Assembly: GCA_029859485.1 (NCBI GenBank)
Contig: JAOUDB010000016.1
Coordinates: 1 to 17,481 of the forward strand
Origin: Desulfuromonadales bacterium
Lineage (GTDB): Bacteria > Desulfobacterota > Desulfuromonadia > Desulfuromonadales > BM103
Direction: 5' to 3'
DNA: 17,481 bases
The notes beneath the pieces were generated by a model. The model saw nothing but the letters and a program-made list of their open reading frames with translations, did not search any database and was not told the DNA's origin. This document shows positions 42-17,481 of this stretch, piece by piece. The translations under genes were made by a program, and so were the position numbers. Every line of letters begins with the position of its first letter. The first letter of the stretch is position 1.

Positions 42-956
42 CTAGCCGCTTGTCGACTTGATAAACTCAACCATCTCGTGAAGAATGTCTTCCGCCTCTT
101 CATAAGGGACCTGGCAGGTTCCCACCACCTTGTGACCGCCACCGCCGTATTTAAGCATCAGGGAACCGACGTCCACGGTTGCCGTCCGTTTGAGAACACT
201 ATATCCCACCGAAAAAAAGACGAACTTGCCATCTTTACCATCAAGCATGCGGATAGAGATGTTCGCCTCCTTATAGAGAGAATAGATGAGAAAACGATTT
301 GACGGGGGAGCCATGCCGGCAATACGGAAATCGGAGATAACGATCGATCCGTCTGACTAGGTACAAGTGTTGTAAAATTTCTTGGCTTTTTCGGTGCACT
401 CAAAGTAGAAGTCTGTGCGTTCCTTCGTATCCGGATGAGCGAGGATTTCATTGATCGACATGTCCCCGATCATATCAACCAGGTAGCGGCAATAAGCCAG
501 ATTACTGATGGTGTAAGTCTTGCTATAACCGAGCCCGGTTCGCGGGTCACAGAGGAAACCGAGGAGAACCCAGCCGGTGGTGTTGAGAATCTCCTCTTCG
601 CCCAACTGCGCGGAGTCAAGCTTGTCGGCATACTCGAGAAGTTCTTTAAATCGTTCAAACTTTTCAGCACCGTAATAAGTGCAGATCACACGGGCAGCGC
701 TTGGTGCCCTCTAGCTTGAGCCTTTGTAGCGGCCCTCAAGGTCATTTCGCTCAATTTCACTGGAATGATGATCGAACCAGAGGCCGCACCCAGGGACATA
801 AGGGACATTGGCCAGGATATCATTCTCTGTGACAGAAATTTTGCCGTCTTGAAGGTCGTTTGGATGGGTATAGACCATCTCATCCATCATGCCGAGTTCT
901 TTTAAGAGAACCGCACAGCAGATGCCGTCAAAATAGGAGCGAGTCAACAACCTCAT
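42..956 (-). pseudogene. DHH-family phosphoesterase with two in-frame TAG codons
   Basis: One reading frame of 304 codons runs from ATG at 956 to TAG at 44-42, interrupted only by TAG at codon 82 (713-711) and codon 200 (359-357). The frame is never shifted. The N-terminus has the DHH motif FDHHSS at residues 61-66, the middle has APSAARVI right after the first TAG, and the C-terminus has the DHHA1 motif GGGGH at residues 271-275. These are marks of the DHH/DHHA1 phosphoesterases (exopolyphosphatase-, NrnA- and RecJ-like), which cleave phosphodiester or phosphoanhydride bonds using metal ions. Motif I, usually RSDFDG, reads RSYFDG, so a metal-binding aspartate is replaced by tyrosine at residue 8. 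A GGAG ribosome site lies 8 bases before the ATG. A TAA follows the terminal TAG three codons later. The likeliest reading is a recent pseudogene; amber decoding is the alternative. The exact substrate cannot be told. Confidence 0.8.
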
Positions 957-1080: not shown

Positions 1081-2490
1081 TTAATCAGTATCCTGCAAAC
1101 AGGAGAGAACCTGGTCACCGGCCTTGTATGCCGCATTGACACAATCATTGAGACCGATACCAAAGAAAGAATTACCCGTCAGGATCAAACCGGGATGATT
1201 CTTCAGGCGCTCCTCTATCGCAAGCAGTCGCTCCGCGTGGCCGACAACATACTGGGGGATAGCGCGCTGGTGACGGAAAATACGCACAAAATCAGGTTCT
1301 GCCTCTATCCCCATGATCTTCTTGAGCTCGACCATGGTTCTTTCTTTAACCTCGGCATCGCTCAGTTCGATCGCCTCAGGAGTCGTGGCGCCCCCCATCA
1401 TGGAACGCAGCATGACGTGGCCTTCCGGAGCACGTTGCGGGAAGATGCTCGAATCCCATAGCGTACCAAGGATATTACAGCCCTCTTTCTTCGGGATCAG
1501 GTAACCAAAACCATCCAGGTCACGAGCCACTTTTTCCTGCTCATAACCGAAACAGATCACGTTCATCGGTGCGTAGGGAATGGCACCAAGAAGTTCAGAC
1601 AATTCACCGTCAACCGACCAAGTCAGCTCTTTGAGGACATGGGCCGGTGCGGCAGAAACAACAACATCGGTATCGTAGTTAGAACCGTCAGCCAGGCGTA
1701 GCTCCCAGCCACCATCGATCTTTTTCAAACCTGCAACAGCCTGACCGGTCCGGACCTCACCTTTAAGACCCTTGACCGTGCCATCAGTCAGCTCCTGAAT
1801 ACCACCAACAAAAGAGGTCAGTACGCCGCCCGGTCCGGCGGCACTGGCGACCTGCTTGCCGGCTTTAACTTCGGCCTTCTTTTTCTTGGCCAACAGCATC
1901 ATGGCTCTGAGAAGGCCGCCATACTCCTGTTCCAGTTCGTGAATGCGTGGGAAGCAACTCTTCAGGCTCATAGTCTCCGGATTGCCGGCAAAGATCCCCG
2001 AGACCATTGGCCCGATCAATTTGTCGAGGGCTTCTGCGCCAAGGCGACGACGGGCAAAATCAGCCAGGGTTTCATCAACGCCATCGGTGCGCTTGGGTTT
2101 GATGAACTCCTGGGCCAGACGAATCTTGCCCGGCCAGCTGATCAATTTCGACTGCAAGAACATCGGTCCGTTTTCCGGCAGGCGGTTGAGGATTCCGCCA
2201 CTGTAGATGAATCGCTTGCGGGCGTTATCATTGGAACGCTCAAGCTGATCCCGAATACCAAGCTGATCACACAACTCCAGAGTCATCGGTTTGCTATCAA
2301 GAAAGCCGTTCGGGCCCCATTCGCAGAGATAACCCTCTTCCTTGATACTCCAGATTTTGCCACCGGTTCTCTCCTCTCGCTCGAAAACCGTGACCTCGAC
2401 ATCCAGACCGGCTTCACCGGCAAGACGCTCGATTGTAAAGGCAGTACTCAAGCCGGAGATACCGGCACCAATGATTGCAATTTTTTTCAT
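1081..2490 (-). CDS. hemY: Protoporphyrinogen oxidase, HemY type
   Basis: This 469-residue FAD enzyme oxidises protoporphyrinogen IX (or coproporphyrinogen III in the Gram-positive branch) in the late steps of haem synthesis. The N-terminus carries the dinucleotide-binding motif GAGISG at residues 8-13, followed by VFEREERTGGK, the usual FAD adenosine-ribose region. The C-terminus has the second FAD segment TGNSFFGIGLNDCVNAAY. The length and the central LIGPMVSGIFAGNPETMS region fit the HemY/PPOX family well. An amine oxidase of another specificity is less likely because these regions are so typical. GGAG lies six bases before the ATG, and the stop is TAA. It is the third of four leftward genes; no other haem gene is in view. 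HemY-type enzymes usually use oxygen, so its presence suggests at least some oxygen tolerance or another electron acceptor. Confidence 0.9.
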   Translation of the reverse strand: MKKIAIIGAGISGLSTAFTIERLAGEAGLDVEVTVFEREERTGGKIWSIKEEGYLCEWGPNGFLDSKPMTLELCDQLGIRDQLERSNDNARKRFIYSGGILNRLPENGPMFLQSKLISWPGKIRLAQEFIKPKRTDGVDETLADFARRRLGAEALDKLIGPMVSGIFAGNPETMSLKSCFPRIHELEQEYGGLLRAMMLLAKKKKAEVKAGKQVASAAGPGGVLTSFVGGIQELTDGTVKGLKGEVRTGQAVAGLKKIDGGWELRLADGSNYDTDVVVSAAPAHVLKELTWSVDGELSELLGAIPYAPMNVICFGYEQEKVARDLDGFGYLIPKKEGCNILGTLWDSSIFPQRAPEGHVMLRSMMGGATTPEAIELSDAEVKERTMVELKKIMGIEAEPDFVRIFRHQRAIPQYVVGHAERLLAIEERLKNHPGLILTGNSFFGIGLNDCVNAAYKAGDQVLSCLQDTD

Positions 2491-7414: not shown

Positions 7415-7507
7415 TTTATGCGCAGCGCCGGACTATCGTCCAAACTGCTTAAACAAGGGCTTCCAGCCGACCTGAGGGGCGATGGGGGACAAACGAGGGG
7501 ATCAGAA

Positions 7508-9658
7508 ATGGCAGGCAATGTGATTAAGAAACCGATTGAAACGACAGAAATCCCCTGGCAGGAAGCTTCACTGGACATCTGGGACAGCAAATACCGGCTC
7601 AAAGATGCAACAGGCAAACCTGTCGACGCGGATCTGCACGCAACTTTTGTGCGTGTCGCCAAAGCGCTGTCTCTCGTTGAAGAAGACGAGACAAAACAAA
7701 ACCACTGGTACGAACGATTTCTGTGGGCATTAGAAAACGGCGCTATCCCTGCCGGACGCATCACGTCTAACGCAGGGGCTCTCGAACACAAGCCTGCCAC
7801 ATCGACCATCAACTGTACTGTTTCGGCAACAGTAGAGGACTCGATGGATCAGATTCTGGGCAAGGTTCATGAAGCCGGCCTGACGCTCAAAGCGGGCTGC
7901 GGCATCGGTTACGATTTCTCAACGCTGCGTCCACGCAACGCCTTTGTCAACGGCGCCGGAGCTAACACCTCCGGGCCGCTGTCTTTCATGGACATCTACG
8001 ACAGCATGTGTCGTACCGTCGCTTCAGCCGGCGGCCGTCGTGGCGCCCAGATGGCGACCTTCGACATCTCTCATCCCGATGTTGTTGATTTTATCAAGGC
8101 CAAGCGAGAAGATGGTCGCCTGCGCCAGTTCAACCTTTCTCTTCTGATCACCAACGAATTCGTAGAAGCGGTAAAGCAGGATCAGGAATGGCCGCTCTGC
8201 TTTCCTCTGACGGCCAAGGAACTGGCACGCGACGGACTGGACCTGAAGGACCCGTCACAAGTTCTCTGGAAGGACTGGCCCGTCAAGGAGGACTATGTGC
8301 AGAACGATGTCGGCGAAGTCGCCTGCAAGATTTATCGTACTATCCGCGCCAAGCAGTTGTGGAATGTGATTATGGCATCCACCTACGATTTCGCCGAGCC
8401 TGGCTTCATCCTCATCGACAAGGTCAATGAGATGAACAACAACTGGTTCTGCGAAGAGATCCGTGCGACCAACCCCTGCGGTGAGCAACCCTTGCCTCCC
8501 TACGGCTCCTGCCTGCTCGGTTCGATTAACCTGACCCGTTTTGTTGACCAGCCCTTTACCCCTGAAGCGAGCTTTAACTGGGAGCACTTCCGCGAGGTTG
8601 TCGCTGTTTTCACCCGCATGCTGGACAACGTCGTCGAGATCAACGGTCTGCCACTACAACAGCAACAAGACGAGATCTTTGGCAAGCGTCGTCACGGTCT
8701 CGGTTATTTGGGGCTCGGCTCGACAATCACCCTGCTCGGCATGAAATATGGTGATGCCGACGCCGTAGCCTTCACAGAAGAGGTCACCCTGCAGATGGCG
8801 CTGGCCGGTTGGCAGCAGGCGGTGGCCCTGGCAAAAGAAAAAGGCACCGCACCGGCTCTCAAGGAAGAATACGAAGTCACTGCCGAGATGCTGCGCAAGC
8901 GTCCCGAAATGGCAGCGGACGGCATCAAACTTGGTCAACGTGTGCCTGGGCGGATCTTACACACCCGCTACAGCCGTTACATGCAACAGCTCGCTAAAAA
9001 AGCTCCAGAGCTGGTCGACGAACTGGCTGAAGTTGGAGCGCGATTCACCCATCACAGTTCCATTGCACCTACCGGCACGATTTCCCTGTCCATTGCCAAC
9101 AATGCCTCCAACGGCATTGAACCCAGCTTCGCCCACCACTATTCGCGCAACCTGATCCGCCAGGGCAAAAAGAGCAAAGAGAAGATCGATGTCTTTTCCT
9201 ATGAGCTGCTGGCGTATCGTGAACTGATCAACCCTAATGCCATGCCTGACAGCAAAAAACCGGAAGAGCGTCTACCGGACAACTTCATCACCTCGGAAGA
9301 TGTCACGCCGAAGCAGCACGTCGACATTCAGGCCGCTGCGCAGAAATGGATTGACTCTTCCATTTCCAAGACCGCAAATGTCCCCAGTGATTACCCTTAC
9401 GAGGATTTTCAGGACATCTACATGTATGCCTACGAACAGGGCTTGAAGGGCTGCACGACCTTCCGCTACAACCCGGAAGCCTTCCAGGGCGTATTGGTCA
9501 AGGATAAGGACCTGGCGGACACGATCTACCAGTTCACGCTGGACGACGGCACAGTGCTCGAAGTCCGTGGCAACGAAAACGTCGAATACGACAATGAGAC
9601 CCATTCAGCGGCGAACCTGTACGACGCGCTCAAAGAAGGCTATTACGGTAAGCTGTAA
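7508..9658 (+). CDS. nrdJ: Coenzyme B12-dependent (class II) ribonucleotide reductase, catalytic subunit NrdJa
   Basis: This 716-residue enzyme reduces ribonucleotides to deoxyribonucleotides using adenosylcobalamin to generate the active-site thiyl radical. The catalytic set is complete: Cys103 (INCTV), Asn322, Cys324 and Glu326 in NPCGE, and Cys335 in GSCLLGSINL. The spacing of 11 residues between the last two cysteines matches the class II enzyme of Thermotoga. SAGGRRGAQMA near residues 173-183 is the usual substrate and cofactor loop. The start at 7508 is chosen because GAGGGG lies seven bases upstream; a longer in-frame start at 7418 adds 30 residues unlike the family and would fall on the transcript start. 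The stop is TAA. The C-terminal cysteine-rich tail of one-piece class II enzymes is absent and is supplied by the next gene, 19 bases downstream, as in the NrdJa/NrdJb pair of Pseudomonas. Confidence 0.93.
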   Translation: MAGNVIKKPIETTEIPWQEASLDIWDSKYRLKDATGKPVDADLHATFVRVAKALSLVEEDETKQNHWYERFLWALENGAIPAGRITSNAGALEHKPATSTINCTVSATVEDSMDQILGKVHEAGLTLKAGCGIGYDFSTLRPRNAFVNGAGANTSGPLSFMDIYDSMCRTVASAGGRRGAQMATFDISHPDVVDFIKAKREDGRLRQFNLSLLITNEFVEAVKQDQEWPLCFPLTAKELARDGLDLKDPSQVLWKDWPVKEDYVQNDVGEVACKIYRTIRAKQLWNVIMASTYDFAEPGFILIDKVNEMNNNWFCEEIRATNPCGEQPLPPYGSCLLGSINLTRFVDQPFTPEASFNWEHFREVVAVFTRMLDNVVEINGLPLQQQQDEIFGKRRHGLGYLGLGSTITLLGMKYGDADAVAFTEEVTLQMALAGWQQAVALAKEKGTAPALKEEYEVTAEMLRKRPEMAADGIKLGQRVPGRILHTRYSRYMQQLAKKAPELVDELAEVGARFTHHSSIAPTGTISLSIANNASNGIEPSFAHHYSRNLIRQGKKSKEKIDVFSYELLAYRELINPNAMPDSKKPEERLPDNFITSEDVTPKQHVDIQAAAQKWIDSSISKTANVPSDYPYEDFQDIYMYAYEQGLKGCTTFRYNPEAFQGVLVKDKDLADTIYQFTLDDGTVLEVRGNENVEYDNETHSAANLYDALKEGYYGKL

Positions 9659-15002: not shown

Positions 15003-16688
15003 CTATTTATTGACAACCTCCATTCTGGTCAGTTTATTGCCAATTAGCGCGGCGGCGATAACCAGTGAGGAAGAGATTCCGATCATGATAATGCCGAGCG
15101 CCGACAGTTCACCCCACAACCCGTCTTCAGCGAAATGCAAAATCTGCACGGCCAGAACTTCAGTTCCGGGCCGGGAAAGAACAACAGAAAGGGTCAGCTC
15201 GCGGAGAAACATACTTGCCATGAGAATCCAGCCGGAAACGATCCCGGGGATCAACAGTGGGATAACGATGCGGCGCATGGTATAGAAGGGACTGGCTCCA
15301 CAAACCCGGGAAGATTCCTCCAGGTGGCTATGGATCTGGACAAAAGCGCTGGAGATCGGTCTGATCCCGTAGGGCAGATAAGTGGCAATATAGCCGATCA
15401 ACAAGGCCGTGATCGTCCCATAGAGTGGCGTTCGCACGAAAAACCACATGAACCCGACACCGATGACGATGCCGGGGAAGGAAAATGACAGAAAACTGAG
15501 CGATTCAAGAAGCCCTGATGCGGTCGAACGGACCTTGACAATCACGTACGAGACAAAGATCGACAGAACAGTACCGAGGGTCGCACCGACGACCCCGAGG
15601 AACAGACTATTCTTCAACGACAGCAGCGAGATCGGATCGCGGAGCACCCCAACCCAGTTATCCCAGGACATCATCGAAAACGCTTTGGCACTTGGAACCA
15701 TCGAATAGGGGAGCATGGAGGTGTAGAAGAGTACCAGTACCGGCAGCAGGATCAGGATAAAGGAAAGAAACCCCACCACGACGAACAGCGGGTACCTGGC
15801 ATTTTTCAGTTTGATCAAGGTCGGCTTGAAGCCACGGCTGGAAATTGTCACGAACTTGCTGCTCTCAGCGGTTAAATAGCGATAGACGTAGATCAGGGTG
15901 ATTGACGCGGCTAGCGCGCTCATGCCGATCGCCGCCGCCTTGCCAAAATCTGCGGCAAAGCCGCTGGATACGTTTCTGTATATATGCGTGGAAAGAACGT
16001 AGATGCGACCCGGCATGCCGATCACCGAGGGAACGGCAAAAGAAGCGAGGCTACGCACAATGACCAGGATTGCCGAAGCCAGTATGGCAGGCCGCAAGAC
16101 CGGCAGGGTCACCTTAAACAAGGTCCGCAGGTTGGAGGCGCCACATACCTTGGAGGATTCTTCCAGCGAGACATCGAAGGCGCTCATGGCCGGCGCGATA
16201 ATCAGGTAAGCGATCGGCAGATCGAGCAAACCTTCAACCAGGATCATCCCCGGCAGGGAATAGATGTTGAACCAGGCGCTCTGAAGACCGAACAGATCGA
16301 TGAACAACTTGTTGAGGATGCCGTTACTTGGATTCAGCAGCAACACCCAGCTGACTGAAAACAGGATGTGCGGAATCATCATTGGGATAATCGAGATGAT
16401 CTTAAAAATAAACTTGAACGGCAAATCGGTTCGGGTGTTGACGTAGGCCAGGAACAGCGCCAGCAGGGTCGCCAGCAACGCCGACCCCCCGGTAAAGACA
16501 AAGGTATTCCACAAAATGGCGGCAAAATCTGGATCGGTGTAGGCTTCGACATACTTGCTGACAGTGAACTGCCCGAAGGAAACGAAATCCTGGGAGAAAC
16601 TGCCCAGCAGCAGCATGACCACCGGACAGAGCGTCAAGAAACCAACGATGATGATCAGGGTTGTGGTCAGAGTCGGTTTTTTAAACAT
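15003..16688 (-). CDS. Two-domain ABC transporter permease, iron(III) type
   Basis: The 561-residue inner-membrane protein has about 12 helices in two similar halves, each with the coupling (EAA) loop that contacts the ATPase: EESSKVCGAS at residues 176-185 and EESSRVCGAS at 457-466. A single chain with two such halves is typical of the FbpB/AfuB/SfuB iron(III) importers, and also of some thiamine and 2-aminoethylphosphonate transporters. The ATG follows the end of the ATPase gene by eight bases, with AGGGG overlapping the ATPase stop, so translation is probably coupled. The stop is TAG, with no other in-frame stop for more than 50 codons, which shows that TAG serves as a stop here. Iron is the likeliest substrate, but the binding protein that would settle this is outside the window. 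Confidence 0.88.
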   Translation of the reverse strand: MFKKPTLTTTLIIIVGFLTLCPVVMLLLGSFSQDFVSFGQFTVSKYVEAYTDPDFAAILWNTFVFTGGSALLATLLALFLAYVNTRTDLPFKFIFKIISIIPMMIPHILFSVSWVLLLNPSNGILNKLFIDLFGLQSAWFNIYSLPGMILVEGLLDLPIAYLIIAPAMSAFDVSLEESSKVCGASNLRTLFKVTLPVLRPAILASAILVIVRSLASFAVPSVIGMPGRIYVLSTHIYRNVSSGFAADFGKAAAIGMSALAASITLIYVYRYLTAESSKFVTISSRGFKPTLIKLKNARYPLFVVVGFLSFILILLPVLVLFYTSMLPYSMVPSAKAFSMMSWDNWVGVLRDPISLLSLKNSLFLGVVGATLGTVLSIFVSYVIVKVRSTASGLLESLSFLSFSFPGIVIGVGFMWFFVRTPLYGTITALLIGYIATYLPYGIRPISSAFVQIHSHLEESSRVCGASPFYTMRRIVIPLLIPGIVSGWILMASMFLRELTLSVVLSRPGTEVLAVQILHFAEDGLWGELSALGIIMIGISSSLVIAAALIGNKLTRMEVVNK

Positions 16689-16696
16689 GAACGCCC

Positions 16697-17481
16697 CTAT
16701 ACCGAAAGTAGAAAACAGTGATCAGGGTCGAAAGAGATGGTGATGGTGTCCCCTTCTACAATATCTGCTGTTGGATCGATGGTGGTGGTTAGCAACGTTT
16801 CTCCGACCCGTATTTCGCCCTCGTAGGCCTCACCGATGAAGATCAGTGACTCCATCTTGCCGCTGAAGAGATTATGCCCCTCTGCAACCTGTTTTGGGGC
16901 CAGGCGGATAAATTCGGGCCGGACGCAGAGCATAGCCTCCTCTCCGACCGCAATATTCTGGCTGTTGAGAGCCACGAGCGACCCAATCTCCGAGGTAAAA
17001 ACAGCGTGTTCTCCTTGATGTTTGGCGATCTTGCCTTTGATCAAGTTGGCGCGACCGATAAAATCCGCCACGAACCTGTCATCTGAGTTGAAATAGATCT
17101 TCTTCGGATCACCCAGTTCAACGATTTTGCCGGCCCGCATAACCGCTATCAGGTCAGAGAGCGCCAAAGCCTCAATCCGGTCATGGGTGACATAGACCGC
17201 GGTAATCTGCAGTTCGCTGAGGAAGCTGCGTAGCTCTTTACGTGTCTCTTCGCGAAGCTTCGCATCCAAGTTGCTCAGGGGCTCGTCAAAAAGGATCACC
17301 TTCGGCTCTGCCACCAGCGCGCGCGCCAGGGCGACCCTTTGCTGCTGGCCCCCGCTCAGTTTAGTTGCCGGCCGGTTCTCATAGCCATCCAGCTGGACAA
17401 AATTTAGCGCCTTGGCAACTTTTTCACGAATCTCGGTTTGAGAGGTCTTGCTGGTTTGCAGCGGGTAGGCCACATTGTCGA
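16697..17481 (-). CDS. ABC transporter ATP-binding protein, iron(III)/polyamine type (5' end outside window)
   Basis: The visible part, about 261 residues, starts inside the protein at DNVAYPLQ; the Walker A and Q-loop lie beyond base 17481. Present are the signature LSGGQQQRVALARAL, Walker B VILFDEPLSNLD and the H-loop VTHD. The residue after VTHD is arginine where glutamine is usual. The motif FIGRANLIKGKI marks the start of the TOBE domain, which runs to the C-terminus and is shared with FbpC-, PotA- and MalK-like ATPases. The ATPase powers the permease encoded eight bases downstream. The stop is TAG. A start at the GTG at 17473 is rejected because the frame stays open to the window edge and the residues before it are typical of the middle of the family. 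Confidence 0.9.
   Translation of the reverse strand, partial: DNVAYPLQTSKTSQTEIREKVAKALNFVQLDGYENRPATKLSGGQQQRVALARALVAEPKVILFDEPLSNLDAKLREETRKELRSFLSELQITAVYVTHDRIEALALSDLIAVMRAGKIVELGDPKKIYFNSDDRFVADFIGRANLIKGKIAKHQGEHAVFTSEIGSLVALNSQNIAVGEEAMLCVRPEFIRLAPKQVAEGHNLFSGKMESLIFIGEAYEGEIRVGETLLTTTIDPTADIVEGDTITISFDPDHCFLLSV

Follow-up and report, generated by a model that had tools for sequence, protein, structure and literature searches.

At one end of a 17,481-nucleotide contig of a Desulfuromonadales bacterium, the whole of which is here called the window, a DHH phosphoesterase gene is interrupted by two TAG codons. The question raised by this locus is whether these codons mark a dead gene, are read as amino acids, or are errors of sequencing or assembly. 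An initial annotation had favoured a young pseudogene while keeping both amber decoding and sequencing error as possible causes. The comparisons presented here leave little doubt that the gene is a recent, still decaying and ordinary pseudogene of a PggH-like DHH/DHHA1 phosphodiesterase.

The interrupted frame and its family

Translation of the minus strand from an ATG at 956 down to 42 gives a frame of 304 codons with no frameshift and with internal TAGs at codons 82 (711-713) and 200 (357-359), in agreement with the initial description of a frame intact except for two ambers. The motifs FDHHSS, APSAARVI and GGGGH, rightly listed there as conserved, are all readable. Motif I, also correctly reported as mutated, reads TRSYFDG, with Tyr in place of an Asp present in all 114 homologues that have a residue in this column (118 compared). 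An alignment of the two interrupted positions, proposed at the same time, showed that the column of codon 82 is variable (K in 80 of the 118 homologues, T in 15, A in 10, E in 7, Q in 2 and four others), and that of codon 200 is mostly occupied by W (66/118) or R (30/118). The coordinates of the locus are collected in Table 1.

Table 1. Features of the DHH locus in the window
Feature	Position	Strand	Remark
PggH-like DHH phosphodiesterase, very probable pseudogene; single frame of 304 codons	42..956	-	Family assigned via an intact relative
In-frame TAG, codon 82	711..713	-	From translation; ORF P0122 of another contig stops at residue 81
In-frame TAG, codon 200	357..359	-	From translation; ORF P0225 of another contig stops at residue 199
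Codon 8, motif I Asp lost	933..935	-	Tyr in the window, Cys in P0122
Terminal TAG, followed by TAA after two more sense codons	42..44	-	TGA at the same place in the G001 copy
hemG-like gene, intact, directly upstream; synteny anchor and selection control	1081..2490	-	
Overlap with the beginning of C88, another contig of this genome	1..172	.	169/172 bases equal, first 126 of C88 exact

The window protein itself matches Pfam DHHA1 below threshold (20.8 vs 25.9 bits) and has no NCBIfam match, and its family was assigned through P0002, a full-length unbroken relative with 91% identity to it. P0002 also lacks a Pfam DHH match and an NCBIfam match and stays below threshold for DHHA1 (19.4 vs 25.9 bits). 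Residues 2-296 of its 303 align with PDB chain 7d62 (PggH, E=1.9e-77), in an alignment that takes in TRSDFDG, FDHH and GGGGH, and this was the sole chain matched at E up to 0.001. In the available portions of two reports, PggH is presented as a pGpG-specific phosphodiesterase (PMC10600005; PMC10294637). A near-full-length match together with motif I, DHH and GGGGH places the ancestral gene with PggH, the nearest solved structure, whereas the window copy, interrupted twice and with Tyr instead of Asp at residue 8, departs from it. The pGpG activity of the intact relatives is thus a prediction by sequence; dinucleotide hydrolysis was probably the ancestral function, and the enzyme of this gene probably clears a spent signalling molecule. 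Source names for the relatives vary between 'exopolyphosphatase' and 'oligoribonuclease NrnB/cAMP/cGMP phosphodiesterase (DHH superfamily)'. The likeness to the NrnA/NrnB oligoribonucleases of the DHH family lies in the NrnB name given to some relatives, but P0002 differs from them in its missing Pfam DHH and NCBIfam matches, and a separate NrnA-like protein is found in the window's own genome (G000).

Decay of the window copy and reality of the stops

A sister genome (G001), 92% identical to G000 in the DHH gene, carries an intact copy at the same locus, so that the two stops of the window copy can be set against an unbroken orthologue. Changes were polarised against two further relatives (G004 and G005), and those of the upstream neighbour, which we take to be hemG, additionally against G007; 12 and 19 changes that could not be polarised were set aside. 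On the window branch the DHH gene accumulated 13N/7S vs 2N/18S in hemG (Fisher p=0.0008). Selection looks partly relaxed in the intact copy as well, since N/S was also raised on the G001 branch (8N/4S in the DHH gene vs 4N/9S in hemG, p=0.12). Pairwise dN/dS between window and G001 reached 0.34 in the DHH gene and 0.068 in hemG; the window-G004 pair gave 0.235, and pairs of intact DHH copies ranged from 0.036 to 0.149.

The positions of the replacements point in the same direction. Among 118 homologues of at least 280 residues, taken from the best 120 of 7998, 87 of the 304 columns are invariant and 138 are at least 95% conserved. Fourteen replacements were assigned to the window lineage by hand from the alignment table; five of them fall on invariant columns (8, 30, 33, 126 and 229), the motif I Asp included, and six on columns at least 95% conserved, vs 6.4 expected without constraint. 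The G001 lineage placed none of its seven replacements on conserved columns, where 3.2 were expected (P=0.014), and none on invariant ones. Because of this difference in hits on conserved columns, the intact G001 copy is taken to keep its protein core, and the window copy is not.

Some observations speak against a simple picture of decay: there is no indel, the blocks beyond motif I can still be read, and part of the window branch was under constraint, since dN/dS with G001 is 0.34 and not 1. As dN/dS is well below 1 and the G001 values are raised, these figures show a recent inactivation, and constraint may be weak in both copies. According to the mechanism that we propose, the two nonsense codons, the loss of the motif I Asp and the further changes at invariant sites would inactivate the gene; translation would end with an 81-residue product that has no functional active site, and no enzyme would be formed. 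An intact sister copy, stops, excess replacements and hits on conserved sites are features shared with bacterial nonsense pseudogenes in general, and we found nothing in which the window copy differs from them.

Three protein searches, one of them with scoring restricted to the 7999 candidates that had most words in common, recovered three ORFs bounded alike. P0122, from a 954-base contig, has 81 residues and ends where codon 82 would stand; with Cys at residue 8 and Ala at residue 30 it departs from the window, and its cluster may include the window's own ORF, the letters of P0122 being different from those of the window. P0225 (932-base contig, 33 member sequences) has 117 residues that correspond exactly to 83-199, with Cys187 and Asn196 in common with the window, and P0074 (920-base contig, 18 member sequences) starts at residue 83 and reaches the end; its residue 200 is Trp, and it has Lys256 in common with the window. 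All three are known as proteins, from which the type of stop codon behind a boundary is not readable, and a contig edge or the choice of start could imitate such a boundary; the two ends of P0225 cannot both be contig edges, because its contig far exceeds the ORF in length. These ORFs suggest that the gene exists in several haplotypes that have decayed to different degrees and, to judge by their recurrence in further assembled haplotypes, the lesions seem to predate the single genome G000. The word 'young' in the initial annotation therefore needs qualifying: it suits a copy 92% identical to an intact one and with a perfect frame, and sits less well with lesions of this apparent age.

The same ORFs bear on whether the stops were created by sequencing or assembly error or by a chimeric multi-strain consensus. 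The assembly is fragmented and MAG-like (637 contigs, 6.24% contamination), and the window end overlaps contig C88 with three differences in 172 bases, a sign of co-assembled haplotypes, of which more than one seem to be present in the bin. However, ORFs bounded at both sites exist in other public contigs, with letters that differ from the window's, and the other window genes discussed for their TAG ends are long open frames, so that an error, as considered in the initial annotation, is very unlikely. Contig C88 (L066) continues downstream in synteny with G001.

A useful fragment, either residues 1-81 or a restart product, could be imagined given that an 81-residue ORF with its own start recurs in another contig (P0122). 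Yet the motif I Asp is missing in both haplotypes (Tyr and Cys), the remainder of the enzyme is absent from such a product, and Met83, a possible restart in P0074 and P0225, is Arg in the window; we regard a fragment still made and useful as extremely improbable. An ordinary pseudogene, the reading favoured from the outset, agrees with the two stops, the lost Asp and the intact G001 orthologue at the locus, as well as with the lack of detected decoding machinery described below.

TAG codons and the genetic code

The lineage near Desulfuromonadales was formerly placed in the Deltaproteobacteria. In the accessible part of one report, an in-frame amber codon of a methylamine methyltransferase is read as pyrrolysine in some marine Deltaproteobacteria (PMC8318568), and the window gene resembles that case in its in-frame TAGs and its lineage. 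Reading of TAG 82 and 200 as pyrrolysine or another amino acid would give a full-length enzyme. That both internal stops are TAG, which had been called striking, is compatible with this idea but is also unremarkable: the intact G001 gene is open to 112 one-step nonsense changes, of which 46 lead to TAG, and with G001 codons two stops would both be TAG with a chance of ~0.17-0.19, about one in six. The window gene differs from the system of that report in that it is not a methyltransferase and in that the pyl genes sought (PylS, PylD) and a suppressor tRNA were not found.

The searches for this machinery had been recommended in the initial annotation. No genome exceeded the curated PylS cut-off among 58 (best in G000 19.8 vs 178.15 bits; weak matches in 50) or the PylD cut-off among 23 (best in G000 19.9 vs 150.05 bits; weak matches in 22), while one of 14 control genomes passed in each search; Methanosarcina acetivorans, a pyrrolysine user, was among the matching controls, the one that passed being unspecified. 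Transfer RNA matches numbered 43 in G000, 46 in G001 (one below cut-off) and 44 in G009, with 150 of 174 first-look candidates scored in G001 and 150 of 165 in G009. ARAGORN assigned 33, 38 and 38 anticodon types to these loci, none of them CTA; ARAGORN recognised no tRNA in one short match of G000 and one of G001. A suppressor gene could be missed in G000, which is 91.55% complete, and its tRNA set is incomplete, since six anticodons of G001 are absent (Arg CCG, Arg CCT, Leu TAA, Pro GGG, Ser GCT and Ser TGA). The better witness is G001, 99% complete; both G001 and G009 are nearly complete genomes of the same genus as G000. ARAGORN also reports a tRNA-SeC with anticodon TCA in G000 (L078, G000:C333), and selenocysteine use of TGA is thus possible in this genome.

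In addition, RF1 exceeded its cut-off in all three genomes, the G001 copy terminates in TGA where the window copy has TAG, and damage to invariant residues away from the stops is not explained by decoding. Amber decoding therefore appears to us highly improbable: the gene is an ordinary dead gene, with no sign of an altered genetic code. In three frames, which we take to be rpoD, ispE and prs, G000 and G001 share a terminal TAG at an identical position. As had been pointed out, two other window genes, presumably a permease and an ABC ATPase (15003-17473), also end in TAG, with the next in-frame stop 53 and 9 codons on, respectively. Conservation of the permease end was discarded as a test, as G001, G005 and G007 hold no close relative of it (best 28% identity), on account of which the permease looks accessory by sequence comparison.

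Several apparent signs of amber use were likewise rejected. The TAG inside the PylD-like matches of G004 and G007 stands outside the gene, directly before the ATG of a neighbour that we take to be TrkA-like. When ORF ends in part of G000 (the window and 34 loci) were compared with fetched loci of G001, G005 and G007, 19 TAG-ended ORFs had a match with at least 80% identity; 10 ended at the same place and nine elsewhere, and none of the nine speaks for decoding. One is the middle piece of the DHH pseudogene, four lie in the window opposite hemG or the 7418-9658 frame (one of each partly outside), those of L050 and L062 lie opposite frames of 294 and 148 codons, and that of L049 overlaps a 250-codon frame on the same strand; that of L054 overlaps no other frame of at least 100 codons, and its counterpart, also TAG-ended, stops 17 residues off. 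One further in-frame TAG interrupts a different DHH gene of G009, some 350 residues long (L196, G009:C7:105800-108200; match at contig 106874-107308, minus), at a position occupied by Ser in G001, G002, G005 and G007; the gene is otherwise readable. This TAG was not retained as a sign of decoding, no CTA anticodon having been found among the tRNAs of G009, and probably reflects either an error or a nonsense change of recent date.

Repeated loss among relatives

Matches to the DHH gene occur in 27 of 98 genomes, four of which (G013, G015, G016 and G020) are represented solely by a distant form (39-40% identity). An orthologue is present in 23 of the 98: 18 copies have neither stop nor shift in the matched stretch, counting that of G008, which runs to a contig end, and five are broken, G000 included. 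Among the other broken copies, G084 has one TAA, G009 a frameshift, G093 an internal deletion with a shift, and G017 a TAA at 29 with homology lost after about residue 88. G000, G009 and G017 belong to one family, and G084 and G093 to the same order. An extra distant form at 37-42% identity accompanies the close orthologue in G008, G009 (where the orthologue is broken), G010 and G014.

For synteny, hemG was fetched from 16 other genomes and 1.5 kb beyond it were viewed. The DHH gene follows hemG within this distance in G000 and in eight of the 16 (G001, G003, G004, G005, G006, G008, G010 and G017, the last a remnant); in G009 and G014 some 2 kb of the same contig separate it from hemG, and in G021 it is on a different contig. 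In G007, G002 and G012 hemG is present and the orthologue is absent both beside it and in the whole genome; G011 has no match to the DHH gene in its genome, and G013 only the distant form. The hemG of G007 is 97% identical to that of G000. Because the alignment picks up again beyond the gene (G007 vs G001 and G005; G002 vs G001), the comparison points to a local deletion in G007 and G002.

In a tree of hemG, in which 7 of the 14 inner branches are open, the broken G000 groups with the intact G001, G004 and G005, the absent G007 stands beside the intact G005 (86/92), and the broken G009 beside the intact G010 (98/96). Each being next to an intact relative, there look to be at least three separate losses within the genus (G000, G007 and G009) if presence is ancestral; several of these genomes exist as draft assemblies, and errors may account for some of the lesions. 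The same gene is lost or broken several times in the family and order. We consider it doubtful that loss was favoured repeatedly in this lineage, beyond drift, as a tuning of pGpG and cyclic-di-GMP turnover.

Loss could be tolerated through another DHH/DHHA1 phosphodiesterase that remains. A further DHH protein, with an open frame of 328-395 codons, is encoded in all eight genomes tested, G000 included. That of G000, a NrnA-like protein of 328 residues, exceeds the Pfam cut-offs for DHH and DHHA1. Its structural matches include NrnA chains as well as solved phosphodiesterases of the DHH/DHHA1 type (TmPDE, E=5.2e-42), while its score stays under the NCBIfam NrnA cut-off (97.8 vs 350 bits). Judging from these matches, it may replace the function of the PggH-like gene and so make its loss tolerable.

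Overall, these data remove a candidate for amber decoding outside methyltransferases. The intact, two-stop, frameshifted and deleted copies at one locus form a small series, well placed for watching gene loss, and suggest that several related genomes can do without this dinucleotide phosphodiesterase.
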